The notes beneath the pieces were generated by a model. The model did no database searches. It was not told the origin of the DNA and was given only the letters and a program-made list of their open reading frames with translations. Of a stretch of 64,000 nucleotides of DNA, positions 449 through 33,375 are shown in pieces. The stretch is from Niabella aurantiaca DSM 17617 (GTDB lineage Bacteria > Bacteroidota > Bacteroidia > Chitinophagales > Chitinophagaceae), in the NCBI RefSeq assembly GCF_000374125.1, contig NZ_KB893637.1:248001-312000 (forward strand), in the 5' to 3' direction. Made by a program: the position numbers and the translations under genes. Position 1 is the stretch's first letter; every line of letters begins with the position of its first letter.

Positions 449-1546
449 ATGATCCGTAATATATTTCTTGTGTTTTTGGGAGCAAGTATGATTACGGGCA
501 TGAGCTGCGGAAAAGATAAAGTAGTTAAGAAAGAGAAAGACCAGCCGGAACGACCGGCTCCCCCCGGGGAGGAAAAGGTCTATACAGCCCGGTTTGGCAA
601 GATATGGGATCTGGCGCCGCATAGTGCCTTTACCGATCTTGTCCGGTTTAATAATGCCTTTTATTGTGTGTTCCGGGAGTCTGCTTCACATACTTCCCAT
701 GATGGAAGGATAAGGATCCTGAGATCTGTGGATGGAAATACCTGGACCTCCGTCCGGTGGTTTCAGAAGGCTCCCGAAGGGCCTTATTCGATTGATCTCA
801 GGGATCCCAAGATTTCGGTGACGCCGGACAACAGGTTAATGGTTCTCGTAGATGTGGAGTATTGGTTAAATAATAACGGAACGTATACCCGGCAAAATTT
901 CCGTCCCTGTGTTTCCTATTCCGATGCACAGGGAACGGTGTTTGACGATCTGCAAAGCTGTTCGGTTTATAACCCGGGGTTAAGTACCGCTTCCTACTGG
1001 ATCTGGCGCGTTAGCTGGAACAGGAACGGTGAAGGGTATGGCTTCGATTATATCAACAGCCCGCTTACCCTGCTCAGAACGGCCGATGGTAAAGCTTATC
1101 ATGCAGTTACAAAACTTTCCTTGCCCAATAGCCCGAATGAGGCAACAGTAAGATTTGATAAGCAGGATAATATGTATGTACTGGTGCGCTGCGAATCGGG
1201 AGGCCGGAACGGGATATTGATGGTAGCGCCGCCCCCGTATTACCTGTTTACCCAATACCCGCTGAAAATGCGGCTGGGCGGACCCGATTTTGAATTTTTA
1301 TCGGATACAACATTGTGTATGGGTACGCGTTTTTATACATCAGGCAAACCGGACTCAACGGCCATTTACATTACCGATTTAAAAGGTAATGTAAAAAAAC
1401 GGTTTCCCCTGCCCAGTGGTGGGGATTGCAGCTATCCGGGAATGGTATTGTATAACGATACCTTATGGACCTCTTACTACTCGTCGCATACGGGTAAAGC
1501 TTCTATCCATTTTACTAAAATACCGGTAGTCCTGCTGGAAAAATAA
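449..1546 (+). CDS. Sialidase-fold (BNR) lipoprotein
   Basis: A 365-residue protein with a lipoprotein signal (lipobox ending MSC at residue 20), so it is probably anchored in the outer membrane or periplasm. The fold is suggested by an Asp-box-like element (SVDGNTW), preceded by FRES...HDG, which lines up with the GH33 segment holding the acid/base Asp. Next comes NEATVRF...LVRCE, which matches the GH33 Glu plus second-Arg segment, and a late Tyr-rich strand (CSYPGMVLY). The FRIP arginine is not present; the corresponding text is HSAFTDLV. It is the shortest of the sialidase-fold set here and has only one clear Asp box. The fold is well supported. The substrate is not; calling it a true sialidase would be over-interpretation. 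Confidence 0.75.
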   Translation: MIRNIFLVFLGASMITGMSCGKDKVVKKEKDQPERPAPPGEEKVYTARFGKIWDLAPHSAFTDLVRFNNAFYCVFRESASHTSHDGRIRILRSVDGNTWTSVRWFQKAPEGPYSIDLRDPKISVTPDNRLMVLVDVEYWLNNNGTYTRQNFRPCVSYSDAQGTVFDDLQSCSVYNPGLSTASYWIWRVSWNRNGEGYGFDYINSPLTLLRTADGKAYHAVTKLSLPNSPNEATVRFDKQDNMYVLVRCESGGRNGILMVAPPPYYLFTQYPLKMRLGGPDFEFLSDTTLCMGTRFYTSGKPDSTAIYITDLKGNVKKRFPLPSGGDCSYPGMVLYNDTLWTSYYSSHTGKASIHFTKIPVVLLEK

Positions 1547-1576
1547 GTTTAAACAGCTTCAATCAAAAATATAAAC

Positions 1577-3339: not shown

Positions 3340-4701
3340 ATGCGTATTTCTTTGATGCTTTTTTTATTTTTTGCAGCCGGTGTATGCGGGGCGCAGCCGT
3401 CTTCAAAGAGTGCAGTGGTTGTGGATGACCGGTCACCCGGGGAAGGCAGGGGCCTTAAGGATGGGATAGCGGCCTATGGAGCTACCACCGTTCAATACAA
3501 ACAACGGGGGAAAAAGGCGTTTGATATCCGGTTTAAAGACCCGGTGGTGATCGCCGTGGCCGCCAGGCCGGAGAAGTGGGGCTTTTTTCAGTTTCCCAAT
3601 ATTGACCGTACTGCCAACGGTAATATTGTTGCTAAATGGAATCTCACCCGTGATGCCATTGAGGCTTACGGAACCGACACGCGTGGCAGCGCTGTCTCCA
3701 CCGATGTGGGAAAAAGCTGGCGGGAGGAGCCTTCCGAAGATCCGGGCAATGCCGTACTGTTGCCCAATGGAGACCGCCTGGCCATTTATACGCCCAAACC
3801 CATTCCTGAAAAAGAGTTGCAATTGCCGGCGCCGGTTGGGGTGGGACTTGAAAACTACCGGAAGTCAAATTTTAATTTTTACCGCCTGAGCGAGCTGCCG
3901 GAAAGCAGGCAGGGCGTCTATTTTAAAAGATTGAAAAAAGGCGCTTCAAAATGGGAGCTGGAGAAGGCGGTGCTGGAAGACCCGCAGGCAGCGCGGTACA
4001 GCCTTGCAGGACTGGTACCGATCGTGTGGTGGGGTGATATTCACGTAGCGAAGGACGGCTCCCTGATCGCTGGCATTTACCCGGGATACCTGGTCGATAA
4101 GGACGGAAAAACGGATCCGCGATCCGGCGCCTTCTTCTATCGCTCCACAGATAACGGGCATCATTGGAGCGTCCAGGGCCGGATCCCTTTTCAATTGGAT
4201 CCAGCCGGAGATACCTTGTCTGCCAGGCGGATGGGATACACAGAGCCGGCCTTTGAAATATTAAAGGATGGTACATTTCTTTGTGTGCTCCGGACCACCG
4301 ATGGTGCGGGCATCGGACCGATGTATGGCAGTTATTCCACTGATCAGGGCAAGACCTGGTCGGTGCCGCAGGTGATCACCCCGGCAGGAGTATTGCCCCG
4401 TTTGCTGCAATTATCCAATGGCGTGTTGGTAATGTCATCAGGGCGCCCCGGCGTGCAGCTGCGTTTTTCAACGGATCCCAGGGGCATGCAGTGGTCCCGG
4501 GCATTTGAAATGTTGCCGCATGATGATGTTAAAAAAGAGCTCAGCGGCGGCTCAGCACAGGTGTCGTGTGGATATACAGGATTGCTTCCAACCGGTTCCA
4601 ATAAATTTCTGATCATCTATTCCGATTTTCATTATCAGACGTCCGAAGGAACCATTCGCAAGGCAATTAAAGTGCGTGAAGTAGTGGTTAAGAAAAAATA
4701 A
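3340..4701 (+). CDS. Secreted sialidase-fold (BNR) glycan hydrolase candidate
   Basis: A 453-residue protein with a Sec signal peptide (MRISLMLFLFFAAGVCGAQ). Four Asp-box-like repeats are visible (STDVGKSW, STDNGHHW, STDQGKTW, STDPRGMQW), the mark of a six-bladed sialidase-type propeller. Active-site-like segments are FQFP in the place of FRIP (Arg replaced by Gln), YTEPAFEILKDG...LRTT for the Glu/Arg pair, GRPGVQLRF for the third Arg and CGYTGLLP for the Tyr. The missing first Arg argues against ordinary N-acetylneuraminic acid specificity. The gene lies 23 bp after the GATase-like gene and 38 bp before another sialidase-fold gene. General class is well supported; substrate unknown. Confidence 0.75.
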   Translation: MRISLMLFLFFAAGVCGAQPSSKSAVVVDDRSPGEGRGLKDGIAAYGATTVQYKQRGKKAFDIRFKDPVVIAVAARPEKWGFFQFPNIDRTANGNIVAKWNLTRDAIEAYGTDTRGSAVSTDVGKSWREEPSEDPGNAVLLPNGDRLAIYTPKPIPEKELQLPAPVGVGLENYRKSNFNFYRLSELPESRQGVYFKRLKKGASKWELEKAVLEDPQAARYSLAGLVPIVWWGDIHVAKDGSLIAGIYPGYLVDKDGKTDPRSGAFFYRSTDNGHHWSVQGRIPFQLDPAGDTLSARRMGYTEPAFEILKDGTFLCVLRTTDGAGIGPMYGSYSTDQGKTWSVPQVITPAGVLPRLLQLSNGVLVMSSGRPGVQLRFSTDPRGMQWSRAFEMLPHDDVKKELSGGSAQVSCGYTGLLPTGSNKFLIIYSDFHYQTSEGTIRKAIKVREVVVKKK

Positions 4702-4739: not shown

Positions 4740-5990
4740 ATGAGTAAAGCGTATAACCGAAGAAATTTCCTGGGACTGATCGGCATATCGCCGTTGATTG
4801 CCCGGGTCGCAGATGTAAACAATACCCTCGTTGCGGAGCAGACACCACGTCCGGTTCCGGATGCGGTCAAAAATACAATAGCAGACATACTGGAAACGAA
4901 AACGATCAGCATCGAACCCGGCAGGTTCCCGGCCGGATGCGGCGGAATTGATAAGAACGGTCATCCCGTTCAGACAAATAATGGTATAGAGCCCAACCGC
5001 TACCTCGGATGGCCGACGGTTGTGCTGACAAAAGACAATGAGCTGCTTGTTGCTTACTCGGGCGACCGGGATAGCCACGTGTGCCCCTTTGGAAAGACAC
5101 AGCTTTTGCGGTCGTTGGACAATGGCAAAACCTGGTCTGCTCCTACAACGATCACCAATTCGCCGCTGGACGACCGGGACGCAGGAATTATTCAGACAAA
5201 GAAGGGGACCCTTGTGGTGAGTTGGTTCACCTCGCTTGCGTTTGAAAATCCGGCATGGAAGGGGGCATATAATAAATATGCCCGCATCGGGGAGAAAATA
5301 AGCGGGGAGACAAAAAAAGAATGGTTGGGTAACTGGACGAAACGGTCGCTGGATGGCGGTAAAACCTGGCAGGTTCCCTCGCGCACAGCAGGAACGGCAC
5401 CCCATGGCCCGGTGAATCTGAAAAGCGGGGATCTTTTATATGCGGGAACGGGAAAATACAAATCGATGGGACCTGTGCTGATCGAAAAGTCGACCGATGA
5501 CGGGAGAACCTGGAAAGTGATCGGAAGCATCCCCTTGCCTGAAAATGCCAAAAGTATTTCAGAACCGCATGTGATCGAATGTTCTTCGGGAAAGCTGCTG
5601 GCCATGATCCGCAATGAATCGAAAGCGTTTCACAGCGGCCACCTGCTGCAATCCGAAAGCCATGATGGGGGAAAAACATGGACCCTGGCAAAAGAAACGG
5701 GTATTTGGGGGTATCCTCCCCATCTAACCCGTTTAAAAAACAATGTATTATTGCTTACTTACGGCCACCGGAAGCCTTCCTACAGCCAGCGTGCCTGCCT
5801 TTCTTATGATGAGGGCAAAACCTGGGATATAGAAAATGAAGTAATCTTAACCGGTTCGCCCAATGGCGATATGGGGTATCCATCCACTGTTCAGTTAATG
5901 GACGGCTCTTTACTGACCGTGTATTACCAGTCGCCGGGCAATGGCCAGCCGACCAATATTCTGTCCACCCACTGGCGCCTAAAAGGATGA
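4740..5990 (+). CDS. Sialidase-fold (BNR) protein with Tat-like leader
   Basis: A 416-residue protein whose N-terminus (RRNFLGLIG) resembles a twin-arginine or Bacteroidota 'RRxFL' leader. It carries five Asp boxes (SLDNGKTW, SLDGGKTW, STDDGRTW, SHDGGKTW, SYDEGKTW). Before the first box it has SGDRDSHVCPFGK, a pattern I know from a distinct subgroup of sialidase-like proteins; the usual acid/base Asp is not obvious there. SEPHVIE...MIRNE, QRACLS and MGYPSTVQL fit the Glu, Arg and Tyr positions. LGWP stands where FRIP would be. The start ATG is the first in frame and follows the previous gene by 38 bp. It is likely periplasmic and acts on the same substrate class as its neighbours. Confidence 0.75.
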   Translation: MSKAYNRRNFLGLIGISPLIARVADVNNTLVAEQTPRPVPDAVKNTIADILETKTISIEPGRFPAGCGGIDKNGHPVQTNNGIEPNRYLGWPTVVLTKDNELLVAYSGDRDSHVCPFGKTQLLRSLDNGKTWSAPTTITNSPLDDRDAGIIQTKKGTLVVSWFTSLAFENPAWKGAYNKYARIGEKISGETKKEWLGNWTKRSLDGGKTWQVPSRTAGTAPHGPVNLKSGDLLYAGTGKYKSMGPVLIEKSTDDGRTWKVIGSIPLPENAKSISEPHVIECSSGKLLAMIRNESKAFHSGHLLQSESHDGGKTWTLAKETGIWGYPPHLTRLKNNVLLLTYGHRKPSYSQRACLSYDEGKTWDIENEVILTGSPNGDMGYPSTVQLMDGSLLTVYYQSPGNGQPTNILSTHWRLKG

Positions 5991-6075: not shown

Positions 6076-7482
6076 ATGACCCGATTACAGGCTCGCCGGA
6101 ATTATTTATTTTTTTGCGCATTGCTGCTTGTCATTGCGCAGGAAGGATTCTGCCAGGACCGCCCTCCCAATGTCGTCTTTTTTCTGGTAGATGATATGGG
6201 TTGGAAGGATTTGCACTGTTACGGATCTTCTTTTTATGATACACCCCATATCGATGCCCTGGCTGCACAATCGGTAAGGTTCACCAGCGCCTATGCATCT
6301 GCGCCGGTTTGTTCCCCGGCAAGATCCGGCATCATGACGGGCAAATATCCGGTGGCCATGCAAACCACCGATTGGTTTGGTGCGGTGCAGCCGGAAGATG
6401 CGGCAAAAGAAACCCGGAAGGAAAAGATCACCCGGTTGTTACCGGCATCTTACAGGAACTACCTGCCGCAACAGGAAGTAACGTTGGCCGAAGCCTTTAA
6501 AAAAGCCGGTTATGCCACTTTTCTGGCTGGAAAATGGCACCTGGGGTCTGTGCCTCAAAACGGTCCGCTGACACAGGGCTTTGATCACTATTTCGAGGGG
6601 AAGGCAAAAAGTCCGTCAAAAGGCAGCTTTGGAATTGTGGCGGAAGCCAACCGGTTTATAGAACAAAATAGAGCGCATCCGTTTTTAGCCTTTGTTTCTT
6701 TTTATGCGGTGCATATTCCCGTTCTTGCCGGCGAAAAGAATATTGCGCGCTATACGGCAAAAAAAGATCGGCTGAAGCTACTTCGGCCAGTGGTGGCAAG
6801 TCCCTGGGGCAGGGAGCGGGTGAAGCAGGATCATGAACGGTATGCGGCCATGGTGTTTGAAACGGATTCCGCAGTAGGGTTGGTGCTTAGTAAGCTGAAA
6901 GAGCTGCAGCTGGATCGCAATACGATCGTTGTATTCCTTTCGGATAATGGCGGGCTTTCTACCGCAGAGGGAATGCCCACGGCCAACAGGCCGTTGCGTG
7001 GCGGCAAGGGATGGTTGTATGAAGGTGGCATCCGCGTGCCGCTCCTCCTGAAATGGCCGGCAATGACGCAGCCTGGCACGGTGGTTGATGCCCCGGTGGT
7101 GAACACGGATCTGTATCCTACGTTGCTGGCATTGGCCGGCCTGCCGCAGAACCACACACAACATAAAGATGGGGTGAACCTGCTTCCCCGGTTGGCAAAA
7201 AAAGAGGTGCCGGAGCGCTCGCTGTACTGGCATTATCCGCATTACGGCAATCAAAAAGGAAGCCCGGCATCCGCCATCCGTTCGGGTAACTGGAAACTGA
7301 TTTACTGGTATGAAGACCAGCATTGTGAATTATACAACCTGAAAGAGGACCAGTCGGAGGCACATGACCTGGCCCCGGTCAAGAAAGCGCTTACGAAAAA
7401 GCTGAAAGCCGATCTGCAGGCCTGGCTGAAAAAGGAAGGCGCGATATACCCGGTTGTAAACCCGGCCTACAACCCAATGTAG
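6076..7482 (+). CDS. Secreted sulfatase (formylglycine type, S1 family)
   Basis: A 468-residue enzyme that hydrolyses sulfate esters on glycans. It has a Sec signal (to about residue 27) and then the family layout: VDDMGW metal-binding Asp pair, CSPAR with Cys79 as the residue converted to formylglycine by an anaerobic or FGE-type maturase, GKWHLG and SDNGG. A Cys-type motif needs a maturation enzyme that is not encoded in this window. Length is normal for S1 exo-sulfatases. It follows a sialidase-fold gene by 85 bp on the same strand. The sulfated substrate and subfamily cannot be read by eye. Confidence 0.93.
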   Translation: MTRLQARRNYLFFCALLLVIAQEGFCQDRPPNVVFFLVDDMGWKDLHCYGSSFYDTPHIDALAAQSVRFTSAYASAPVCSPARSGIMTGKYPVAMQTTDWFGAVQPEDAAKETRKEKITRLLPASYRNYLPQQEVTLAEAFKKAGYATFLAGKWHLGSVPQNGPLTQGFDHYFEGKAKSPSKGSFGIVAEANRFIEQNRAHPFLAFVSFYAVHIPVLAGEKNIARYTAKKDRLKLLRPVVASPWGRERVKQDHERYAAMVFETDSAVGLVLSKLKELQLDRNTIVVFLSDNGGLSTAEGMPTANRPLRGGKGWLYEGGIRVPLLLKWPAMTQPGTVVDAPVVNTDLYPTLLALAGLPQNHTQHKDGVNLLPRLAKKEVPERSLYWHYPHYGNQKGSPASAIRSGNWKLIYWYEDQHCELYNLKEDQSEAHDLAPVKKALTKKLKADLQAWLKKEGAIYPVVNPAYNPM

Positions 7483-7637: not shown

Positions 7638-8807
7638 ATGCGTTGGATCAGGATAAGAGAGATACTACTGTTGCTTTTTGTATTACCGGCTATTACGGTG
7701 CCTGCACAGCAGCAAAATGCAGGGGTAAAAAAAATAAAAGATATCGTGCTGTATGAAGATGCCCGTTTTTACAGCTCGTTCCCTTCCATCATCCGGCGGC
7801 CGAACGGGGAGTTCCTCCTGGCGTTCAGGAGAGCACCGGAACGGAAGCGGCTGGGGGAGAAGGGTACCAATCATGTGGATCCCAACAGCTACCTGGTGAT
7901 GATGCGCTCCAAAGACGGGATCAACTGGCCCCGGCAACCGGAACTCTTATACGCCTATCCTTTTGGTGGCTCACAGGATCCCTGTTTGCTGCAGCTGCGT
8001 GATGGATCCATCCTCTGCGCCAGCTATTCCTGGGTGTTTCCCCGGGCGGATGCTAAAATAAAAGCACCTTACTTCGGGCACTATACATTGAGCTCGGTCT
8101 TTAATGGCGGATATCTGGTGAAGTCCTTAGATGGCGGTAAGACCTGGCAGGGGCCCTATGAGCCGTTGCATATACCATCGGAAAAGCATAATGATGCGTT
8201 TGGCAACCCACTGCCGGCTTATAACAGGGGAGCGATGTATGAAGGTAAAAAGGGGCAGCTCTACTGGGTGGCAGCAAGCGTTGAAAAAACAAAACCATTG
8301 ATCAACGCCACGCACCTGCTGGTTTCCTACGATAAAGGAATGACCTGGAAGTATTCAGCGCCTGTGGCCAAAAATGATAGCATTTCCTTCAGCGAAACAT
8401 CCGTGTATGAAACGCCAAAGGGCGATATTGTGGCGTTTATGCGGACAGAGTTTTATGATGACCAGGCCTGTATTGCCCGCTCCACGGATGGTGGTAAAAC
8501 ATTTAGCTGGGAAAAGATGGGCTTCCAGGGACATCCGCTCAACGCGCTGCGTTTGCCGGATAACCGGGTATTGCTTACCTATGGGTACCGCCACGCGCCT
8601 TTTGGTATCCGGGCGCGTATCCTGAATGCAGAGTGTACCGATTATGCAACGGCGCCCGAGATCGTATTGCGGGATGATGGAGGCACCCGGGACCTGGGTT
8701 ATTCCTGGCCGGTGCAGCTGACAAACAACCGGGTACTGGTGGTTTATTATTTCAATAAACAGGACGGCATACGGCATATTGCGGGTACCATTCTTGAAAT
8801 AAAATAA
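7638..8807 (+). CDS. Secreted sialidase-fold (BNR) protein
   Basis: A 389-residue protein with a Sec signal (about residues 1-24, ending VPAQ). Asp-box-like elements are SKDGINW, SLDGGKTW, SYDKGMTW and STDGGKTF. SSFPSII replaces FRIP; AFRR...NHVDPNSYL aligns with the acid/base Asp segment; FSETSVYE...FMRTE supplies the Glu/Arg pair; FGIRARIL the third Arg; LGYSWPVQL the Tyr strand. It is separated from the upstream sulfatase by 155 bp with an inverted repeat, so it may have its own transcript. It closes the first plus-strand block; what follows on the plus strand is degraded sequence. Family well supported, substrate unknown. Confidence 0.75.
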   Translation: MRWIRIREILLLLFVLPAITVPAQQQNAGVKKIKDIVLYEDARFYSSFPSIIRRPNGEFLLAFRRAPERKRLGEKGTNHVDPNSYLVMMRSKDGINWPRQPELLYAYPFGGSQDPCLLQLRDGSILCASYSWVFPRADAKIKAPYFGHYTLSSVFNGGYLVKSLDGGKTWQGPYEPLHIPSEKHNDAFGNPLPAYNRGAMYEGKKGQLYWVAASVEKTKPLINATHLLVSYDKGMTWKYSAPVAKNDSISFSETSVYETPKGDIVAFMRTEFYDDQACIARSTDGGKTFSWEKMGFQGHPLNALRLPDNRVLLTYGYRHAPFGIRARILNAECTDYATAPEIVLRDDGGTRDLGYSWPVQLTNNRVLVVYYFNKQDGIRHIAGTILEIK

Positions 8808-9279: not shown

Positions 9280-10086
9280 CTATTTATAGGCCTCATTCCC
9301 TTTTTGCTCCTCTGTTGCAGATGAGTGGATCCTGCTAACAAGGGTTTTAAAATAAGCGGAGAGCCCCACTACATCGGCGCCCACACTTACAAACTGATAA
9401 CCCATCTGTTTAAAAGAATCCAGGTGGTCGATGCCGCCGGTAGTGCCGGCGAATTTTCCGTATTTTCTTGCCAGCGCGGCAACCCGCTCCCTTGTTTCCA
9501 ATAGCTTCGGGTGGCTGAAATCCCCGGGCGCCCCGATGCCCTGGCTAAAATCGCCCGGGCCAAAAAAGAGCATGTCATAACCTTCCAGCGCTGCGATGGC
9601 TTCCAGCTCTTCCAGTGGTTCGGGGTCCTCGATCTGCAGCACTACAAACCGCTCTTTATTGGCGGTGGCCAGGTATTCCTGAAAATCCATATTGGTATAG
9701 GCCCCGTCTGCGTTACCGCCATCGATCGGCCTTCTGCCGATGGGATGGAAGCGGGTATCCTGTACCACTTTTTTCGCATCATTCAGGCTCATAATATGCG
9801 GTACCATAATGCCCGTGGCATCCATTTCCAGCGGCTTGGCCAGATCGCTGTAGCTGCCCCGGGGTACCCGCACCATCAGGTCGGTATTGTATGCCTTGGT
9901 TGCCCATACCTGGCTGTTGAGCACATCCCAATCGGGAGTACAATGTTCCTGGTCTACCCAAACACAGTCAAAACCGCAAAGGGCGGCGATCTCGGCTACC
10001 TGTGCGTTCGAAATATTTATTTTGATGCAGCTGGCAAAGCCACCGCTTCTCAATTTTTGTAATACGCGACTTGTTCTCATTTTCAT
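9280..10086 (-). CDS. HpcH/HpaI-type class II aldolase (2-keto-3-deoxy acid aldolase family)
   Basis: About 268 residues from the ATG at 10086; an upstream GTG at 10101 is less likely. The family cleaves 2-keto-3-deoxy sugar acids to pyruvate or a related keto acid plus an aldehyde in the cytoplasm, using a divalent metal. Visible marks are VWVDQEH, VRVPRG, MVPHI, HPIGRR, QIEDPE (metal-ligand Glu) and FGPGDFS (metal-ligand Asp). No signal peptide. It is the last gene of a minus-strand group, 16 bp after the HEAT-type lipoprotein gene and downstream of an MFS transporter, which fits import and cleavage of an acid sugar. Which keto acid is used (for example a rhamnonate, fuconate or galactonate derivative) is not visible. 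Confidence 0.85.
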   Translation of the reverse strand: MKMRTSRVLQKLRSGGFASCIKINISNAQVAEIAALCGFDCVWVDQEHCTPDWDVLNSQVWATKAYNTDLMVRVPRGSYSDLAKPLEMDATGIMVPHIMSLNDAKKVVQDTRFHPIGRRPIDGGNADGAYTNMDFQEYLATANKERFVVLQIEDPEPLEELEAIAALEGYDMLFFGPGDFSQGIGAPGDFSHPKLLETRERVAALARKYGKFAGTTGGIDHLDSFKQMGYQFVSVGADVVGLSAYFKTLVSRIHSSATEEQKGNEAYK

Positions 10087-10102
10087 AGTTGAAAAATACA
10101 CA

Positions 10103-11062
10103 TTATTTAGATGTCCGCTCCGCTATTTTCAGGATGGCATAAGCGGCTGCAGCCCGCACATCAGCGCCGGTTGCGCTTTGTGCCTCATAGAGGCCATTGT
10201 TTTCATTATTGTTTAAGAAGGCCGACAAAACCGTTGCATCGTCGCAATCGCCTTGTTCCGCCAGTGCCTGTGCCAGCTCAATACGCTGGGAGGCGGTGAA
10301 CTGCTTCCAGTCCCGGGTCATCTCTGTTTTTATTTTTTGGAAAGTGGTCTCATCATCACCAAGGTAAGTTACAAAAGCCGCATGAAGCAGGTTGTTGCGC
10401 AGCTCACTGCCTGCCGGCTCATTCAAAGCCTTTGTTGCAAACGAGCTCCATTCCCGGGGTGTCAGGTCTTTTGATTTCAGCAATACATAGGCGCTGATCT
10501 TCCGGATGATGGGGTCCGGGTCTTCAAAGGATCTGCGGATGAATTCCTGTTTGTTCTTTTCTTCGGTCTCTGCAGAAGTATAGGAGGTAGCCCACAACGT
10601 ATAGGTCTGCAGGATGCGACTGGTATCGCCCAGCGCAGCATGGGTGGCCTCCGGGTATAATGGCTGCGGGGATGTTTTCAGCTTGGCCAGGGTTTCGGCG
10701 GCATGGATCCGGTCGGGAGAAGTGGTATCGCCAAAAACGGCAAGTACCTTGTCCACCCAGGCTTTCTTCTTTGCAGGGTCGCTTTCGGTCTGGTATAAAA
10801 CACGCGAGATGCCGATGCGGTATTTCGGTTCATTCTGATATTTCCCGTATTCATCCAGGTAAGCTTTTTGCACTTCGCTGTTGTCCTCGTGCAGCCATAG
10901 CAGGTATTCAGCCGCATGAACTTTTACCCAGACGGTATTGTTTTTTAATACTGTGCGCAATTCAGTCAGCGCCTGGTCTTTTAAAGAGGTTTCTATTTTG
11001 CACGGATGCATACAGGAATAGTTTAGGAATGAAAGTGTACAGATGATAAAAAGAAATTTCAT
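10103..11062 (-). CDS. Lipoprotein with HEAT-like helical repeats, unknown function
   Basis: A 319-residue protein with a lipoprotein signal (lipobox ending NYSC at residue 17). The rest is helical, with repeated units of the form VKVHAAEYLLWL, IHAAETLAKL, IRKISAYVLL and VRAAAAYAILKI, typical of HEAT or PBS-lyase HEAT repeats, which form protein-binding solenoids. It sits tightly inside the MFS-aldolase operon (5 bp after the MFS gene, 16 bp before the aldolase), so its placement is not random. An enzyme activity is not expected. Its partner and role are unknown. Confidence 0.7.
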   Translation of the reverse strand: MKFLFIICTLSFLNYSCMHPCKIETSLKDQALTELRTVLKNNTVWVKVHAAEYLLWLHEDNSEVQKAYLDEYGKYQNEPKYRIGISRVLYQTESDPAKKKAWVDKVLAVFGDTTSPDRIHAAETLAKLKTSPQPLYPEATHAALGDTSRILQTYTLWATSYTSAETEEKNKQEFIRRSFEDPDPIIRKISAYVLLKSKDLTPREWSSFATKALNEPAGSELRNNLLHAAFVTYLGDDETTFQKIKTEMTRDWKQFTASQRIELAQALAEQGDCDDATVLSAFLNNNENNGLYEAQSATGADVRAAAAYAILKIAERTSK

Positions 11063-11067: not shown

Positions 11068-12342
11068 TTATTTTGATGAGCCCGTGGTCCGGGCGTATAT
11101 GGACTTGATGGCAAAAAGCAGGAGCGCGCAGACGACCATCGTGATTGCAGCCGTTTTGAAGAGCACCTGTGTGTTTACCGAAGCGTCCCTCAGCACGCCG
11201 CCGGCGTAAATGCTCAGCCCGCCTACAATGCAGGCAAACATATTTAAGACCCCGTATCCTGTTGCACGGTACTTTTCATCAGCGATCATGCAGAGGATGG
11301 GCATCAGGTTGGTATCGGTAAACGTACGGGTGAATGCGTAGACCATAAATCCGCCGATGGCCAGTAACAATACATCGGTAGCACCGGCCATATAAGCTGC
11401 AGGGGCAGCGATCAGCAGGCCGATAGCCGGCAGCAGGATGCGCGCATAGCGGTTGGACCGGTGCCAGCGGTCGGCCAGAAACCCGCCTAAAATGACCCCG
11501 GCAAAACTGAGCGGATAAACATACCAGGTGGCATATACGCCCGCCATGGTTTGTGAAAGCTGGTAATGTTCTTTATAGTAGGTTGGCAGCCATCCAACGA
11601 TCATCCATCCCACCAGACCCAGCAGGCCCCAGAAGATCACCAGCAAAATAAAGCTGCGCCGTTTGAAAAGGGTCTTGATCCCGTTCAGGAAGGTGATCTT
11701 CTCATCGCTGTTTCCCTGTTCGGCCGGAAGGGGAAGGGAAGCCCTGCCACCCGGTACATCTTTCAGGAAGAAGAACATGACTACGGCATACGCCACTCCG
11801 AATATGCCAAATACGGTGAAGGCATCCGACCAATGATGATTTTCGGCGATCCATCCGCCCAGGAATCCCATAGACTGACCGATCATGATACCCCCGTTGT
11901 GAATGCCGATGGCCAATGATCGGGTGGAGCCGCGATGATAGTCGGCGATCAACGCCAGTGCAGCCGGAATGTAGCAGGCTTCACTGATGCCCATCAGCGC
12001 CCTTGTGGCCAGCAGTTGTTCAAAGTTTTGAGCATGGGCAGTTAACCAGGTAACGGCAGACCATACAAAAAGACTTACAATAATGACCTTGCTGCGGCTG
12101 AACCGGTCTGCAAGAAAGCCCGCATAAGGGCTGAGCAGTCCGTATACCCACAGGAACACGGAGGTCAGCAGCCCGAATTGTGCGTCCGTCATAGGAATGG
12201 CGTCCACGATCGACGTGCGCATCGTGGTCAGCATGATCCGGTCCAGATAGTTCAGGAAACCGACAACAAACAACAGGAAGACAGTAAGCCAGGCGCCGCG
12301 TATGGCTTTTTGATAGCGCTCAGAATCGTTATACGTAATCAT
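11068..12342 (-). CDS. MFS transporter, ACS/hexuronate-type
   Basis: A 424-residue inner-membrane protein with about 12 hydrophobic segments. The N-terminal NYLDRIMLTT, AGFLADRFSRSKVI and later GGFLADRWHRS are MFS loop motifs. The N-terminal pattern resembles the anion:cation symporter group that includes hexuronate and sugar-acid transporters. The upstream SGNH hydrolase gene and the downstream aldolase support import of a de-acylated sugar acid. This is inference from context. It is probably transcribed as MFS, HEAT lipoprotein, aldolase. Confidence 0.82.
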   Translation of the reverse strand: MITYNDSERYQKAIRGAWLTVFLLFVVGFLNYLDRIMLTTMRTSIVDAIPMTDAQFGLLTSVFLWVYGLLSPYAGFLADRFSRSKVIIVSLFVWSAVTWLTAHAQNFEQLLATRALMGISEACYIPAALALIADYHRGSTRSLAIGIHNGGIMIGQSMGFLGGWIAENHHWSDAFTVFGIFGVAYAVVMFFFLKDVPGGRASLPLPAEQGNSDEKITFLNGIKTLFKRRSFILLVIFWGLLGLVGWMIVGWLPTYYKEHYQLSQTMAGVYATWYVYPLSFAGVILGGFLADRWHRSNRYARILLPAIGLLIAAPAAYMAGATDVLLLAIGGFMVYAFTRTFTDTNLMPILCMIADEKYRATGYGVLNMFACIVGGLSIYAGGVLRDASVNTQVLFKTAAITMVVCALLLFAIKSIYARTTGSSK

Positions 12343-13177: not shown

Positions 13178-13504
13178 AATGGCAAATGATGTTAAAATGA
13201 TCCTTAAAAATAAGAAAGGTACCGGTAGTTTGCGTAGTCTCAGAAATTGTTTAAAAAAAGACCTTTCAAAAATCCTGCATCTATTAAGCAGCATTCGTTA
13301 CTTACCGTTCTGAACCAAGCTTACTGCTTCACGGTCTTTTATATCCATGTAAATTCAAGATACACATTTATGAAAGCTTAAAAATCGGTTTTCCGGCAGG
13401 AAACGAAAAGCGGCTGATATAATAGTACCTGATTTATGGATGAATTGCCCGGTTGTTCTTTTTCAATAAAATTAAGTTTGCACGAGATAAAACAAACGGT
13501 TGTG
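13178..13504. other. Divergent intergenic region
   Basis: This 327-bp gap separates the minus-strand SGNH gene from the plus-strand GH99-like pseudogene, so it must hold promoters for both directions. On the plus strand a TAAGTTTG box at 13473-13480 matches the Bacteroidota -7 consensus TAnnTTTG; a weak GTTG lies 17 bp upstream. No box of comparable quality was seen for the minus strand. No gene is apparent. Confidence 0.45.
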
Positions 13505-24433: not shown

Positions 24434-24438
24434 AAGAG

Positions 24439-26301
24439 ATGATGCTGAAGCATACAAAGACATTGCCCGGGAGCAAACGAAAGCTTCTCCTTTTTGTTAC
24501 CGCTTTTTTAGGTGGCGCGGCAATGGGCTTATCCGCACTGGTTGGCCAGGGCATTCAGAGGATAGAAGGTTACGATACCGTGCTGTTTCATTACAACGGG
24601 AATCGTACGCTGGCTACAACAGACTACCGGGGCACCAAAAAGGGGTATATGACCGCTGCCTGGTGGGCGCCGGAGCAAATGAAAAAAAATATATTGCGCT
24701 GGCGGACCGCAACCGTACCGGAAAAAAAGAATACCGTGTTTGTTTTTGTTGGCGCTTCTGCTCCGTTGCCAGCGGAATTTTCCCGGGGCCCCGCAGTAAA
24801 GCTTACGGTGAACGGGCAGTATGCGCTCACTTTCAAAACAGGGGTCTTGCGGGACTTTACCTGGACGGAGGGAGATTGTAAGTTGAGATACAGCTCCAAG
24901 CGGGTGGAGTATCCTTACTTTGGCACGCACCGGCAGTTTCAGCTGCATGGCAACAGCGGGCTGTACGAGCTTACCATTCCTGCTTCAATGCTGGAACCGG
25001 GCAAGCCCGCGGTGATCGAAGCCGAAATGCTTCCGTTTCCCCAGTGGCCCAACGGCTGGTTTATGGTAAAAGCATACCGGGATGTATTGAAGCAGGAAAC
25101 GATCGCAGACCTGCAGGGACAGGTAAATACATTGAGAAAAGATGTGGCTACTTTGAATGAGCTTACACATGTGCTGGGCACACAGCTGTACAGCAGCCTG
25201 CTGGGCACCGATCGTTTCCAGCATCAGGTGATCTATGCCGATGGCTTCCGGCACCTGCACCCGGCCGATCTGGTAACGCTGCAGAATGGCGAATGGCTGC
25301 TGTTCAGCAGGGAGGGTACTGAACATCTTTCCGATGATGGCGACGTCTTTTTATTGCGTTCAAAAGACCAGGGGAAAACCTGGGGCGGGAAACAATGGGT
25401 TGCCAGCATCCCGGAAGTAGATGAACGGGAAGCCTGCGGCCTTCAGCTAAAGGATGGTACCATTGTAATGGCCGTTTTTTATAACAAGCTCTATTTTAAG
25501 GATGGTAGCTATTTTTTGTGGAAACCCGGATCGGTGCTTCCCAAAGACCCGGTACACCCGCGGCTGGGCACTTATATCATTACCTCGAACGATAACGGGC
25601 GCTCCTGGTCGGAGCCCCGGTATATTGACATAAAAGGCATGCCGGTAAACGGGCTGGAAGGCCCCACAGACGCGCCCATTGAGCTTCCAGACGGTTCCAT
25701 CGGTATGGCAGTGATCGGCTATTCGCTGCAGGGCGATTCAAAAAACACCGGTTCTGTCTTTTTGCGGTCAACGGACAAAGGCAAGAGCTGGGGCTATGTG
25801 GCTACCATTGCCAGCGACCCGGGCGGCAGGCTGGGCGGCTTTGTGGAACCGGGCATTGTGCGTACAAAAACGGGTCGCATCATAGCCGGGTTGCGCAATC
25901 ATGCCGACGAAAATGCAATCTGGATGACCTATTCTGATGACAACGGAAAAACCTGGGTGCCTGTTTTTAAAACGGCAATGATCGGCCATCCGGTGGATCT
26001 GATCCAGTTAACGGATGGGCGGATCATGGCTACCTATGGCATCCGGGAGGCGCATGCGAAGCCGGGCGGAATCCGGGCATGCTTCAGCAACGACAATGGC
26101 AACACCTGGGACATCCGCACAGAAGTCCAGTTGCGAAACGATTTTATCAATATGGATATCGGGTATCCGGAATCCGTTGAGCTGAAAGGCGGGAAGGTGT
26201 TTACCGCATATTATTTTAATCTCTTTGGAAAATATTTTTTGGGCAGCACCATCTGGAACCTGAAAGATGCGGCGGTGCCGCGTTCCGCTACCCGGCACTA
26301 A
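24439..26301 (+). CDS. Sialidase-fold protein with a new N-terminal domain (tandem copy 1)
   Basis: A 620-residue secreted protein. After the leader (about residues 1-36) there is an approximately 190-residue beta-rich domain that I do not recognise, with landmarks KGYMTAAWWAPEQMKKNIL, VKLTVNGQYALTF and HRQFQLHGNSG. A short heptad-like helix follows (TIADLQGQVNTLRKDVATLN), then a propeller with five Asp boxes (SKDQGKTW, SNDNGRSW, STDKGKSW, SDDNGKTW, SNDNGNTW). Cleft residues: REGTEHLSDDG for the acid/base Asp region, FVEPGIV...GLRN for Glu/Arg, GIRACFS for Arg, IGYPESVEL for Tyr. RHLHP occupies the FRIP place. Its twin starts 30 bp downstream. Confidence 0.8.
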   Translation: MMLKHTKTLPGSKRKLLLFVTAFLGGAAMGLSALVGQGIQRIEGYDTVLFHYNGNRTLATTDYRGTKKGYMTAAWWAPEQMKKNILRWRTATVPEKKNTVFVFVGASAPLPAEFSRGPAVKLTVNGQYALTFKTGVLRDFTWTEGDCKLRYSSKRVEYPYFGTHRQFQLHGNSGLYELTIPASMLEPGKPAVIEAEMLPFPQWPNGWFMVKAYRDVLKQETIADLQGQVNTLRKDVATLNELTHVLGTQLYSSLLGTDRFQHQVIYADGFRHLHPADLVTLQNGEWLLFSREGTEHLSDDGDVFLLRSKDQGKTWGGKQWVASIPEVDEREACGLQLKDGTIVMAVFYNKLYFKDGSYFLWKPGSVLPKDPVHPRLGTYIITSNDNGRSWSEPRYIDIKGMPVNGLEGPTDAPIELPDGSIGMAVIGYSLQGDSKNTGSVFLRSTDKGKSWGYVATIASDPGGRLGGFVEPGIVRTKTGRIIAGLRNHADENAIWMTYSDDNGKTWVPVFKTAMIGHPVDLIQLTDGRIMATYGIREAHAKPGGIRACFSNDNGNTWDIRTEVQLRNDFINMDIGYPESVELKGGKVFTAYYFNLFGKYFLGSTIWNLKDAAVPRSATRH

Positions 26302-26331: not shown

Positions 26332-28128
26332 ATGAGACAATCAAAACAAATCTTTTACCTGTTCCTGTTATTTTTTATCGCGCGATCGGCTTCGGCCCAG
26401 GAGCGGCAGCAGATAGAAGGGTTCGACACGGTCGCTTTTCATTACAACGCCAACAGAGGCGCGGCCGTCCGTGATTTCCGGGGGCAAACAAAAGGATATA
26501 TGACCGCGGGCTGGTGGGCAAAGGGGCAGATGAAGAAAAATATCTTATCGTGGAAGACGGCGGTTGTTCCGGAGAAGATGACCACTACGTTCAGCTTTAT
26601 TGGTTCCGGCGCCGTTTTGCCGGCGGCCTTCCTTATCGGGCCGGAGCTGCGCTTAAGTGTAAATGGTAAATATGCACTTACGTTCAACATCGGGAGAACG
26701 CATGATTTTATCTGGAAGCAAGGAGCATTTGAGCTTAAATATATTTCGAAGAGGGTTGAGTTTCCCTATACCGGCGAGCACCGGCAGTTTGGGCTGAACG
26801 GGAACAGCGGTATTTATCAGCTGACGGTTCCGGCCTCGGTCCTGGAAGCAGGTAAGGCGGCCACCATACAGGTAGAGCTGCTTCCGTTTGAAGGCTGGGA
26901 CCATGGCTGGTTCATGGTAAAAGCCTATAAAGATGTTCTGCAGACACCCACTGTACAAAAACTGGAAAAACGGATCGAAGGAATGCAGAAGGACATCAAT
27001 CTTTTGATGGAGCATACGGACATCCTGGCAACGAAGCTATACAATAAAGAGCTTGGAAATAACCAGTTCGAGCACCAGATCATTTATACGAACGGTTATC
27101 GCCACCTGCATCCCGCAGACATTATCAAATTGAAGAACGGCGATATCCTGCTCTTTACACGGGAGGCTACGGAACATTTTGCCAATGACGGGGATATTGT
27201 CATGCTGCGGTCGAAAGATAACGGCAAGACCTGGGGCGGACGAAAAGTTGTAAGCGCCATAAAGGACCTGGATGAGCGGGAAGGATGCGGCATCCAGTTA
27301 AAGGACGGTACCATCATTGTGGGTATTTTTTATAATGACCTGTACATCCCGGATGGTACCTACAACTGGGGAGGAACGGTAAAATTAAAGCCGCTGAACC
27401 GTGCCCGGCTCGGCGCGCATTTCATCACCTCAAAGGATAACGGGGAAACATGGGAGCAGGGTGCTTTTATCGATATGAAAGATAAACCGTTCACCGGTGT
27501 GGAAGGCCCCACCGATGCGCCGGTTGAAATGCCGGACGGCAGCATTGTTATGGGCGTGATCGGTTATGGGATCAATGGCGATTCCAAGAACATCGGATCC
27601 GTTCTGCTGAAATCGACGGATAAGGCAAAGACCTGGAAATATGTGTCCACCATTGCGGGAGATCCCGGTGGAAAGCAAAAAGGATTCCTGGAACCGGGCC
27701 TGGTCCGCACAAAAAGCGGAAGGCTGATCGCGGGTTTGCGGAATCATGCGGATGAGAATGCCATCTACATCAGTTATTCTGACGATGACGGCAAAACCTG
27801 GGTACCACCATTTAAAACAAAAATGATCGGGCATCCTGTGGACCTGATCCAGCTCAGGGATGGGAGGGTGATGGCTACTTATGGCATCCGCGAAGGGGTT
27901 GGCCGGCATACCGAGCCGGGAGGCATCCGCGCCTGTTTCAGCTATGACAACGGCAAGACCTGGGATTTAAAAAATGAGGTAGTACTGCGCAGCGACTTTA
28001 TCAACTGGGACATCGGGTATCCGGAGTCGATTGAAATGGAGGACGGGCGGATCATGACCGTGTATTATTTCAATCTTTTTGGAAAATATTATATCGGCGC
28101 CACTTACTGGAAGCCGGAGCAGAAATAA
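26332..28128 (+). CDS. Sialidase-fold protein with a new N-terminal domain (tandem copy 2)
   Basis: A 598-residue secreted protein (leader ends SASAQ) closely similar to its upstream neighbour along the whole length. It shows the same N-terminal domain landmarks (KGYMTAGWWAKGQMKKNIL, LRLSVNGKYALTF, HRQFGLNGNSG), the same heptad-like linker (VQKLEKRIEGMQKDINLLME) and five Asp-box-like repeats. Cleft segments are REATEHFANDG, FLEPGLV...GLRN, GIRACFS and IGYPESIEM. The two are a clear tandem duplication that has diverged enough to suggest different linkages or oligomer partners. A sulfatase follows after 26 bp. Confidence 0.8.
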   Translation: MRQSKQIFYLFLLFFIARSASAQERQQIEGFDTVAFHYNANRGAAVRDFRGQTKGYMTAGWWAKGQMKKNILSWKTAVVPEKMTTTFSFIGSGAVLPAAFLIGPELRLSVNGKYALTFNIGRTHDFIWKQGAFELKYISKRVEFPYTGEHRQFGLNGNSGIYQLTVPASVLEAGKAATIQVELLPFEGWDHGWFMVKAYKDVLQTPTVQKLEKRIEGMQKDINLLMEHTDILATKLYNKELGNNQFEHQIIYTNGYRHLHPADIIKLKNGDILLFTREATEHFANDGDIVMLRSKDNGKTWGGRKVVSAIKDLDEREGCGIQLKDGTIIVGIFYNDLYIPDGTYNWGGTVKLKPLNRARLGAHFITSKDNGETWEQGAFIDMKDKPFTGVEGPTDAPVEMPDGSIVMGVIGYGINGDSKNIGSVLLKSTDKAKTWKYVSTIAGDPGGKQKGFLEPGLVRTKSGRLIAGLRNHADENAIYISYSDDDGKTWVPPFKTKMIGHPVDLIQLRDGRVMATYGIREGVGRHTEPGGIRACFSYDNGKTWDLKNEVVLRSDFINWDIGYPESIEMEDGRIMTVYYFNLFGKYYIGATYWKPEQK

Positions 28129-28154: not shown

Positions 28155-29645
28155 ATGAAAGTAAAGGGTCTTATATATTTTGCGTTATTTTGTGCAGCCA
28201 TCGGACCACTATACATTAACGGGCAGGCAAAAACGAAGCCCAATGTGCTGCTGATCGTTTCCGAAGATCATGGTCCGCACCTGTCCTGCTACGGCGATAC
28301 GAATGTACAAACGCCCAACCTCGACCAGCTGGCGGGGCAGGGCATCCTGTTCAGAAACGCCTATGTGACGGAGTCCGTCTGCAGCCCCTCCCGGAGCAGC
28401 ATTCTTACCGGGCTGTACCCGCATCAAAGTGGCCACCTGGGGCTGACGACGCATGGTTTCCATTACGTGGGGCAGGTTCCGACCATTTATGCCCTGTTAA
28501 AAAAGGCGGGCTATAGAACGGGGATGATCGGTAAGCTGCATCTGAAGCCGGAAGCGCTTTTCCCGATCGATGAGCACCCGATCAAAAGTCCCAATTATGA
28601 AAAGAAAGGACTGGAGCGTTATGCGGCCTATGCCGGTAAGTTTATGCGGGCCTCAGATGAACCATTCTTCCTGATGGTGAACTTCCCCGATACACACTGG
28701 CCCTTCCAGGACCAGGTAGAAGGGCGACCGTCAAAAACGGTGACCCCCGCGCAGGTGACCTCGTTTCCGTATATCGGGTTCGATAACGAACGGATCCGCA
28801 GCTATACCAGCAGTATTTACAATTGCATGCTGCGGCTGGACGGGTGTATCGGAGAACTGATGCAACAGCTGGAACAGTCAGGGAAATTGCGCAATACACT
28901 CGTGATCTTTTTGTCGGATCATGGCGATGAGATGGCCCGGGGAAAATTTGATATCTACGAAGCTTCCAATAAAGTGCCGTTCATCGCATCCTGGCCCGGA
29001 GTGATCGGGAAGGGAATGCAGTCGCAGGCCCTGGTGTCTTCGGTCGATATAGTGCCTACGGTGCTGGAGCTGGCGGGCATTGCAAAGCCCCGGAACCTCA
29101 CCGGAAAAAGCCTGATGCCGCTGTTCGCAAAACCCGGTCTGCAGTTCAGGGAGTATCTTTTTACCGAAAAGAATGCCGATCAGATCGGGATGTATTACCC
29201 CCGGAGGGCGGTGAGGGACGGCCGTTATAAGATCATCTATTCCTTGCTGGATGATGGCCGTAAAAATGAGGTGGCGGTAAGCTATACCCGGAACAGCCTG
29301 AAGCCCCGCACCGACGCGGTGGCCGGTTCTCCTACGCTGGAGGAACTGAAGAGCGCTCCGGCCTTTATACAAAAAGCCTATAACGACTGGATACTGCCGG
29401 CAAAAGTACAATTGTACGACCTGGAAAAGGATCCGTATGAATTTTATGACCTGTCTGCTGATCCGCATTATGCCGCCGTCAAAGGCCGGTTACTGAAGGC
29501 GCTGTTCCGGTGGCAGAAAGAAACCGGTGATCCCCTTCGCTTTCCGGATAAGCTGAAAAGATTGACACAGGAAAATGATACCATGAAGGTTTCGAAGAAT
29601 ATGCAATGGCACTACCCGGAATATTTATACGGTCATAAACGATAA
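28155..29645 (+). CDS. Secreted sulfatase (formylglycine type, S1 family), second copy
   Basis: A 496-residue enzyme with a Sec leader (ending YINGQ). Motifs: SEDHGPHLSCYG in the metal site, CSPSR with Cys76 for formylglycine, GKLHLK (the usual GKWH variant), and LSDHGDE. It belongs to a different S1 subgroup from the sulfatase at 6076, as the SEDHG opening and SDHGDE end differ from VDDMG and SDNGG. It lies between the tandem sialidase-fold pair and a GH36-like gene with gaps of 26 and 18 bp, so desulfation is built into this operon. Confidence 0.92.
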   Translation: MKVKGLIYFALFCAAIGPLYINGQAKTKPNVLLIVSEDHGPHLSCYGDTNVQTPNLDQLAGQGILFRNAYVTESVCSPSRSSILTGLYPHQSGHLGLTTHGFHYVGQVPTIYALLKKAGYRTGMIGKLHLKPEALFPIDEHPIKSPNYEKKGLERYAAYAGKFMRASDEPFFLMVNFPDTHWPFQDQVEGRPSKTVTPAQVTSFPYIGFDNERIRSYTSSIYNCMLRLDGCIGELMQQLEQSGKLRNTLVIFLSDHGDEMARGKFDIYEASNKVPFIASWPGVIGKGMQSQALVSSVDIVPTVLELAGIAKPRNLTGKSLMPLFAKPGLQFREYLFTEKNADQIGMYYPRRAVRDGRYKIIYSLLDDGRKNEVAVSYTRNSLKPRTDAVAGSPTLEELKSAPAFIQKAYNDWILPAKVQLYDLEKDPYEFYDLSADPHYAAVKGRLLKALFRWQKETGDPLRFPDKLKRLTQENDTMKVSKNMQWHYPEYLYGHKR

Positions 29646-31973: not shown

Positions 31974-31998
31974 TCAATATACCAATCAATTTTATGAT

Positions 31999-33375
31999 AT
32001 GAACAATCATCCATCATCACGAAGAACATTCTTAAAGCGCACGGGCATTGTAATGGCCGGTATCCCTTTTGTAAATACAAGCCTGTTTCCCGGTAAACAA
32101 TCAATAGCAGAGGGACATTGGGTGGTGGCGCACAATGAGCCGGTTACGGTGCTTACCGATAACCGGTTAAAATTTGACTATGGAGAGGAGCGTATGATAT
32201 GGGAGGACGGCTTACAGCCTTCCATGCTCATCACCCGTAATAACACCATTGTGGTGCAGGCGCAAAATCACAACAAACCCCTGCCCCAGGAGCGGATCTA
32301 TTACCCTTTTGCGGTAGATACGGTGGTGTCCCGGGATAAGGGAACCACCTGGAAGAAAATACCCCTTCTGCCGGGTAAGAACGATATCAACATTGAGGGC
32401 GGCATCATCCAGCTGAAAGACGGCACCATCCTGGGACTGGAAACCTATGTGACGCCCGGCAGCAAACCCGATACCGGCGAAACGCTGATGTTCTATTCGG
32501 CAGACGATATGAAAACGGTCAAAGGACCGGTTACGGCTACATTTGACATTCCGGATTCAAACTTTTATGCTTCCTCTGATGACGGCGGCCGCCCACATGT
32601 GGCCATGCGCCTGCACCGCAGGATCATCGAAATGCCCAATGGCGACCTTATGACAACCATCTACGGATGGCAGAAAGGGGATAAGAGCCCATCGGACTAT
32701 GAAGTGCGCATGATCAAGACAAGGGTCATGATATTCCGCTCTTCCAATAAGGGGCGTCATTGGAAATTTGTATCGAGTATTACGACAATGCCACAGGCAC
32801 AGACGGAAGGCTTTGGGGAACCGGTGCTGAACCGGGTGAATAAGGGAAAGCATGCCGGCCGGCTCATTTGTTTCATGCGTACCGGCAGGGAGCTGTTCAA
32901 AGCGTATTCCGATAACGAAGGGAAGACCTGGAGCAAGCCGGAGCCCATCCAGTTTGCAGACCGCGATGTATATGCCACGGAAAAATGGCGGGAGATGTTT
33001 AAAGATGTGAAACGGAAAGGTCAATTAGTGACCGAGAGCTCGGTTGAGATCATCGGGGCCGTGGTGGACCCGGATCTTTGCGTATTGCGCAGCGGCCTTC
33101 TGGTGGCGGCCTTTGGCATCCGCATACCGGCAAAAGCCTGCTGGCAAAAATTCAACCATCCCTGGAACGGCAATTACATTGCTGTAAGCAGCGATGGTGG
33201 CGATACCTGGGGCAACGTGCAGCAGCTGACCTCCGGCATTCCGACCACACACTATATGGCTATAGAGGAAATGAAAGAGGACAATACCGTATTTGTTGTA
33301 TATGACTGGGGCTGGTGGGGATACAAAGGCGGGCGTTATACCTACGGCCGGCCGGTAACCATCCGGAAAAAATAA
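31999..33375 (+). CDS. Sialidase-fold (BNR) protein with Tat-like leader
   Basis: A 458-residue protein with the leader SRRTFLKRTGIVMAG. Asp-box-like elements are SRDKGTTW, SSNKGRHW, SDNEGKTW and SSDGGDTW. GFGEPVLNRV...CFMRTG fits the Glu/Arg pair. The third Arg and the Tyr are harder to place than in the other members, and QPSMLI stands in place of FRIP with QNHN before the first box. It is therefore the most divergent of the set. It closes the operon that began with the esterase at 23465; the next gene starts 162 bp later. Confidence 0.7.
   Translation: MNNHPSSRRTFLKRTGIVMAGIPFVNTSLFPGKQSIAEGHWVVAHNEPVTVLTDNRLKFDYGEERMIWEDGLQPSMLITRNNTIVVQAQNHNKPLPQERIYYPFAVDTVVSRDKGTTWKKIPLLPGKNDINIEGGIIQLKDGTILGLETYVTPGSKPDTGETLMFYSADDMKTVKGPVTATFDIPDSNFYASSDDGGRPHVAMRLHRRIIEMPNGDLMTTIYGWQKGDKSPSDYEVRMIKTRVMIFRSSNKGRHWKFVSSITTMPQAQTEGFGEPVLNRVNKGKHAGRLICFMRTGRELFKAYSDNEGKTWSKPEPIQFADRDVYATEKWREMFKDVKRKGQLVTESSVEIIGAVVDPDLCVLRSGLLVAAFGIRIPAKACWQKFNHPWNGNYIAVSSDGGDTWGNVQQLTSGIPTTHYMAIEEMKEDNTVFVVYDWGWWGYKGGRYTYGRPVTIRKK

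Follow-up and report, generated by a model that had tools for sequence, protein, structure and literature searches.

We analyzed a 64-kb window of the Niabella aurantiaca DSM 17617 genome (contig NZ_KB893637.1, positions 248,001 to 312,000), in which seven open reading frames (ORFs) encode sialidase-like proteins, named here by their first position in this stretch (Table 1). By alignment, all seven keep the Glu/Tyr nucleophile pair of the sialidase family GH33 and one of its three carboxylate-binding arginines, and five carry a family-wide His no more than three residues from, and perhaps exactly at, the place of the GH33 acid/base Asp. Our favored reading, to which we give about even credence, is that the seven are active exported sialidase-fold glycosidases, encoded in a Bacteroidota glycan-use locus, whose lineages are related to GH33 but separate. 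They probably cut a sugar other than sialic acid.

All seven ORFs are open on the plus strand, and profile comparison relates each of them to sialidases. Six pass the curated cut-off of Pfam BNR_2 (PF13088); 449 had no match in the Pfam scan of the window's ORFs. By profile, 449 matched the related family at 98.4% (reversed control, 0.06%) and, more weakly, GH33 at 92% (reversed control, 16%). The family itself matched GH33 at 99.8%, 31999 at 99.7%, and 3340 at 99.9%, with reversed-profile controls of at most 1.7% against the family (three controls) and at most 16% against GH33 (four controls). The GH33 profile in these comparisons had 15 rows and excluded loci on the minus strand. For 7638, PDB 5HX0 (Dfer_1899, deposited as uncharacterized) is a match over nearly the full length (E = 3.4e-168). 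Its FRIP place reads AAFP, and its His, Glu, Arg, YGxR, and Tyr match those of 7638, with no key-residue difference. Because this close homolog has been solved, the fold of the 7638 lineage is experimental. The literature matches listed included no paper with the 5HX0 code or the Dfer_1899 tag and no function for it, and the available portions of the literature searched, including PMC10067855, PMC2716378, and PMC11790493, yielded no characterized family member and no recorded activity.

Pocket residues were tallied in a 179-sequence alignment for three sets: the seven, 61 relatives, and 34 GH33-like proteins, which are not proven sialidases. The relatives came from 80 loci of a public-genome scan; 17 loci were set aside by hand, and of the 63 proteins taken two were dropped for length. 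They were gathered by likeness to FRIP-less proteins, with search patterns that did not span the FRIP place, and the GH33-like set was gathered by likeness to a YRIP protein. Because each set was collected by likeness to its own kind, the tallies characterize the groups and say nothing of how frequent FRIP loss is. Another 53 rows labeled as relatives mix in a different BNR_2 lineage and were excluded from the family counts; in 18 of these 53, Gln replaces the nucleophile-activating Glu, and these form a separate lineage.

Glu, the second Arg, and Tyr are each present in all seven, and in 57, 60, and 59 of the 61 relatives, respectively. The Glu precedes the second Arg by 16 residues in six of the seven and by 20 in 31999; the spacing is also 16 in the YRIP protein C1:942593 of this genome. 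The original prediction had placed this Glu and Arg at GH33 positions, which holds for all seven. It had also assigned a third Arg and the Tyr to six of them; the Tyr extends to all seven, whereas the third Arg is uncertain, its column holding Arg in five, with GH33 spacing in 3340 only. The loss of several GH33 features could suggest that the seven are non-catalytic sugar-binding propellers, a view that the retained Glu, second Arg, and Tyr make very unlikely. A pseudoenzyme was likewise rejected as a candidate, since the catalytic residues are near-invariant.

The FRIP Arg, present in 33 of the 34 GH33-like rows (the remaining one has Cys), is in none of the seven, and the residues read in its place (Table 1) are those originally given. 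Seven FRIP-less sialidase-fold paralogs are thus real, and the prediction somewhat understated the change: the supporting C-terminal Glu is also gone in all seven, and the acid/base Asp is probably changed in most. Nor is FRIP loss confined to this locus: 60 of the 61 relatives from other organisms share it. The sole relative with Arg at this column, L221:2807-3727, reads DRLP. The C-terminal Glu supports the FRIP Arg in known sialidases. Its column holds Glu in 34/34 GH33-like rows and Tyr in 55/61 relatives; in the seven it holds Tyr (five), Ser (one), or Asp (one).

The acid/base Asp column holds Asp in 34/34 GH33-like rows and His in 56/61 relatives. Among the seven it holds His in five, Glu in 31999, and a gap in 3340, which has a Glu at the same Asp-box offset where the others carry His. 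An Asp box was recognized in 56 of the 61 relatives, and in 51 of these the His lies 12 residues before its first Ser. A further Arg, in a YGxR motif, occurs in 58 of the 61 relatives versus none of the 34 GH33-like rows. It is found in 4740, 7638, 24439, 26332, and 31999 in the 179-row alignment and in 449 by profile alignment; 3340 lacks it. The set of residues seen in 5HX0 (His, Glu, Arg, YGxR, DxGYP, and a second Tyr) is complete in 4740, 7638, 24439, and 26332. By profile alignment 449 also has it, with DCSYP for DxGYP; 31999 (no His) and 3340 (no His and no YGxR) do not.

The identity of the third triad Arg is uncertain. Where five of the seven have Arg in its column, 449 has Lys and 31999 has Gln, and by eye the Arg of 4740, 7638, 24439, and 26332 is closer by four residues to the next Asp-box place than its GH33 counterpart. 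Two residues ahead of the FRIP Arg position, 24439 and 26332 have an Arg that is invariant in 9/9 aligned homologs; if it lies on a strand, it could face the same way as the FRIP Arg, so that for these two the condition named as refuting the original prediction, an Arg supplied from another place, may apply.

The match of the family His to the Asp was obtained in two of four alignments, the 179-row alignment and a HMMER alignment of the profile to solved sialidases. In the latter, the His falls on the Asp of 8feb and 8gn6 and on an Ala in the 8t26 chain; around this place the rest of the printed stretch of 8t26 looks like that of 8feb, and the Ala would be an inactivating variant made for crystallography. 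Several observations weigh against our reading. hhalign sets the Asp two columns off the His, and a 74-row alignment sets it three columns off. Neither 31999 nor 3340 has the family His, and at the FRIP column one of the 61 relatives (L221) has Arg and another Lys. The pocket residue assignments are themselves predictions. Finally, in a survey of the neighbors of relatives in other phyla (70 of the 80 loci and 240 neighbors; 121 nearest neighbors of at most 900 amino acids (aa), 111 of them scanned), no partner was shared among the 111 scanned neighbors, so function may differ across the family. Among the matches listed (the best 25 of 174 families), the commonest neighbor family was found four times, sulfatase three times, and DHDPS twice; a simple sulfatase pattern was found in 5 of the 240. 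A separate caution applies to 31999, which aligned directly to GH33 over only 98 columns and out of register, so that its residue calls rest on alignment via the family.

The original prediction took the missing Arg to mean that the seven act on a different acid. Its premises stand in part, in that the FRIP Arg is gone, the nucleophile is kept, and aldolases and an acid-type MFS transporter recur nearby, but the inference from Arg loss alone does not follow. In the GH181 sialidase Amuc_1547, Gln takes the place of one triad Arg, yet sialyl substrates are cleaved (PMC10067855). That paper also describes the Tyr nucleophile of GH181 as replaced by Gln, with an inverting mechanism; since GH181 lost both a triad Arg and the Tyr yet is a sialidase, loss of the FRIP Arg alone leaves the substrate unsettled. 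As far as that account goes, GH181 resembles our family as a BNR-type propeller outside GH33 with one triad Arg altered, and differs in having Gln for the Tyr that all seven keep. Amuc_0623, a BNR protein inactive on the sialyl substrates tested (PMC10067855), was considered as a candidate family member. Should the acid/base Asp of the seven also differ, their substrate would not have to be an acid. The family profile matches 8axs, 8axi, and 8hls, which we take to be GH181, at about E = 2e-7, and the exo-arabinanase 3a71, presumably GH93, at E = 2e-8.

The tolerance of GH181 for the loss of one triad Arg (PMC10067855) would also suit another explanation, in which the seven are ordinary sialidases with a drifted motif and another Arg fills the FRIP site. 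The Arg two residues ahead of that site in 24439 and 26332 fits such a replacement, as does an FCIP protein of this genome that lies inside the GH33-like clade. Nevertheless, we consider this explanation quite improbable: FRIP loss is nearly universal among the relatives and the supporting Glu is missing throughout the seven, several lineages would each need a rescue, and the genome has kept separate YRIP proteins. An ordinary GH33 enzyme with a drifted motif was rejected as a candidate, given that the supporting Glu is lost too.

A quick maximum-likelihood tree was built from 96 rows, 19 of them GH33-like, and repeated with the 87 rows left once identical copies and five long rows had been taken out. 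In the first tree a single clade on a long stem (support 100) gathers the 19 GH33-like rows, and all seven fall outside it. The same holds in the 87-row tree, where six label changes account for the seven (a count as low came from 82 of 500 label shuffles). They fall into six lineages, namely 449, 3340, 31999, 4740, 7638, and 24439 with 26332, the last being the only pair that groups together. A deeper branch shared by 3340 and 31999 has support 98, with a program warning of possible long-branch attraction, and 4740 and 7638 grouped with rows that the scan had drawn from other organisms. Judging from these trees, the seven are not a local radiation. The original prediction also suggested a separate enzyme for each linkage, an idea that is speculative and is not supported by this analysis. 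Among 395 genomes of the phylum, 3340 and 31999 were each found in two at E = 1e-15 and 449 in five at E = 1e-12, all counts including the genome itself. The record titles of the relatives name Planctomycetota, Verrucomicrobia, Acidobacteria, Bacteroidetes, and other groups, and among the named records the one titled Chitinophagaceae bacterium (L233) has the closest copies of several locus genes. The first ~230 residues of 24439 and 26332 are without a Pfam match; an Acidobacteria homolog (L190) aligns almost end to end, N-terminal region included. A relative of 7638 in genome G013 (L185:2135-3297) is spread over two frames.

In summary of the comparison with GH33, represented by the YRIP proteins C1:942593 and C2:389081 and by PDB 1eus, which we take to be GH33 sialidases, the seven share the Asp-box propeller type, the Glu/Tyr pair, and the second Arg. 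Unlike them, the seven lack the FRIP Arg and its supporting C-terminal Glu, probably have His for the acid/base Asp in most cases, carry the extra YGxR Arg (3340 excepted), and fall outside the GH33-like clade.

Based on these residues, we propose the following mechanism for the favored reading. The exported propeller would bind a terminal glycan residue in its cleft, and Tyr, activated by Glu, would attack as the nucleophile in an exo-acting reaction. The His, or perhaps the Glu of 3340, would donate the proton, as its conservation suggests. The terminal residue would be held otherwise than Neu5Ac; relative to GH33, the change would lie in the part that grips the C1 carboxylate and, probably, in the group that donates the proton. 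What is released, or a product derived from it, may be a sugar acid, which the MFS transporter of the locus might import and the HpcH/HpaI and DHDPS-type aldolases might split; these last steps are more tentative. On this view, a single complex sulfated glycan would carry various caps, to which the various pockets of the seven would correspond.

The surrounding genes (Table 1) make this a locus of the Bacteroidota glycan-use type, with SusC/SusD, two sulfatases, GH127, carbohydrate esterases, and an AraC regulator, along with two GH36 proteins, one weakly GH36-like protein, and MFS and SSF transporters. The DHDPS-type aldolase reads VGCKTAG and YNPP, which we take to be the places of its catalytic Lys and Tyr, and both it and the HpcH protein presumably retain their catalytic residues.

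Table 1. The seven sialidase-like proteins and other genes of the locus, in window positions. Pocket residues are predicted from alignment; remarks marked "by eye" come from inspection of the translation.
Feature	Positions	Strand	Length	FRIP place	Pocket residues	Remarks
449	449..1546	+	365 aa	SAFT 623-634 (within HSAFT)	His81, Glu231, Arg247, Arg294 (GTR), Tyr329 (profile alignment)	Lipoprotein-like start (by eye)
3340	3340..4701	+	453 aa	FQFP 3586-3597	Glu108 (offset of the His in others), Glu302, Arg318, Tyr412	BNR_2 33.6 bits
4740	4740..5990	+	416 aa	LGWP 5004-5015	His113, Glu275, Arg291, Arg344 (YGHR), Tyr380	Twin-arginine-like start (by eye); BNR_2 85.7 bits
7638	7638..8807	+	389 aa	SSFP 7773-7784	His79, Glu253, Arg269, Arg318 (YGYR), Tyr355	Close homolog of PDB 5HX0
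24439	24439..26301	+	620 aa	HLHP 25252-25263	Arg271 (FRIP Arg position minus 2), His296, Glu470, Arg486, Arg536, Tyr576	Extra N-terminal region
26332	26332..28128	+	598 aa	HLHP 27103-27114	Arg257 (FRIP Arg position minus 2), His282, Glu454, Arg470, Arg520, Tyr563	60% identical to 24439
31999	31999..33375	+	458 aa	LQPS 32212-32223	Glu274, Arg294, Arg375 (FGIR), Tyr419; no His at the family His place	Twin-arginine-like start (by eye); BNR_2 45 bits
Sulfatase	6076..7482	+				PF00884, E = 1.1e-53
Sulfatase	28155..29645	+				PF00884, E = 6e-53
HpcH/HpaI-type pyruvate aldolase	9280..10101	-				PF03328, E = 2.3e-27; NCBIfam models below cut-offs
HEAT-repeat-like exported protein	10103..11062	-				Between aldolase and transporter; weak HEAT matches, likewise in three homologs
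MFS transporter	11068..12342	-				Nearest NCBIfam model D-galactonate type, below cut-off
PhyH-type oxygenase	15654..16412	+				PF05721, E = 1.9e-35
Enolase-superfamily sugar-acid dehydratase-like protein	20969..22279	+				Below NCBIfam cut-offs
DHDPS/NanA-superfamily aldolase	44901..45845	+				PF00701, E = 2.7e-13
SusC-type outer-membrane receptor	47407..50622	+				
SusD-type glycan-binding lipoprotein	50631..52097	+				

The sulfatases would also suit uronate lyases or other eliminating enzymes, in which Tyr and His would serve as base and acid and the arginines would hold a uronic carboxylate. Tyr, His, and arginines in one cleft make a lyase-like set, as in PL24 and PL25. GH181 is an example of a related propeller that has been rebuilt (PMC10067855). 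A lyase would have no need of the Glu kept at GH33-like spacing in six of the seven, and the only GH88-type match among the scanned window ORFs, a weak one, falls within the GH127 protein; we judge this explanation unlikely.

To view the locus in other organisms, the HpcH/HpaI aldolase was looked for in 11 genomes picked for holding relatives of the seven, and all but one (G006) have it. The ten aldolase regions compared come from nine other genomes of at least four genera, two regions being from one genome and some contigs being short. The MFS transporter is present in 10/10 regions (at 55% of its length in one), SusD in 10/10, SusC in 9/10, the HEAT-like protein in 8/10, the PhyH oxygenase and the DHDPS-type aldolase in 7/10 each, and the sugar-acid dehydratase in 4/10. 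Members of one or more of the seven sialidase-like families, at 40% identity or more, are present in 9/10 regions. Because of how the genomes and regions were chosen, these counts show that the genes lie together and not how specific the link is. Beside the aldolase in G533 are genes for an aldo/keto reductase, a MocA-type protein, and short-chain and zinc dehydrogenases, and the one scanned neighbor on that side in G045 is a short-chain dehydrogenase. Also in G533, an amidohydrolase fused to a class III aminotransferase is encoded in the interval that separates the sialidase-like genes from the aldolase. In N. aurantiaca, a DeoC-type aldolase, a class III aminotransferase, an amidohydrolase, an FGGY kinase, and an aldehyde dehydrogenase are encoded 22-36 kb upstream of the window. 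Only 4-6 kb upstream of where the window starts is a peptidase M60 gene (G000:C13:241691-243661; L157:1692-3662), whose proximity to the sialidase-like genes is a hint of a glycoprotein substrate. A pathway that imports a sugar acid, perhaps one from an aminated glycan or glycoprotein, and splits it by aldol cleavage would suit this context, and the sialidase-like enzymes may be what releases that acid.

This context bears on the proposal, following the original prediction, that the seven act on another nonulosonic or ulosonic acid, of the legionaminic, pseudaminic, Kdo, or DHA type, with the remaining arginines rearranged to hold the carboxylate. In known enzymes, a Tyr/Glu nucleophile accompanies a substrate carboxylate on the anomeric carbon, and this pair is kept in all seven. 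Two aldolase types and an acid-type transporter lie near relatives, whereas the sugar-acid dehydratase occurs in a minority of regions (4/10), and aminotransferase, amidohydrolase, and reductase genes occur in the same islands. The Arg ahead of the FRIP position in 24439 and 26332 and the YGxR-type Arg in six of the seven could supply the carboxylate contacts. Set against this are the joint absence of the FRIP Arg and its supporting Glu, a possible change of the acid/base Asp, the uncertain third Arg, and the scarcity of DHDPS among the scanned neighbors of relatives in other organisms. On balance, we regard this proposal as possible but doubtful.

Our favored reading can be extended in a bolder form, which we put forward with low confidence. 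The cross-phylum group would have a new catalytic layout, in which the GH33 Tyr/Glu pair and one Arg are kept, His replaces the acid/base Asp, and the FRIP-Arg/Glu pair is replaced; in this locus, six FRIP-less lineages (four with the His) would strip non-sialic acidic caps, for dedicated aldolases to split. Such proteins usually carry a sialidase annotation assigned by similarity. If their pockets differ as the sequences say, these annotations mislead, and a sizeable cross-phylum group of enzymes would have one solved structure, 5HX0, to hand.

Two stretches of the window were unmatched in the ten compared regions. Positions 13436-15544 hold a short WbsX-like ORF and a DUF2961 ORF, as if inserted or decayed here. 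Within 36485-39419, ORFs 36485 and 38046 (DUF2961) overlap in different frames; ORF 36485 has no PDB match and only a weak family match.

In the genome as a whole, BNR_2 gave 27 match rows. The strongest read HASTI near the FRIP place (C1:764207-765034, C21:52482-53306, and C1:668461-669315), and these proteins may belong to the Gln-for-Glu lineage. The genome's own YRIP proteins are encoded away from the locus, on C1 and C2. The C2 YRIP gene adjoins an MFS transporter gene, and a gene resembling N-acylglucosamine 2-epimerase (364.8 bits against a cut-off of 600) lies ~2 kb away, a neighborhood that might resemble a sialic acid locus. The FCIP paralog within the GH33-like clade, with Cys for the FRIP Arg, is at G000:C1:162469-163290 (L161:7005-8360), and no more than about 8 kb away are two DHDPS/NanA-like genes, both scoring below model cut-offs.

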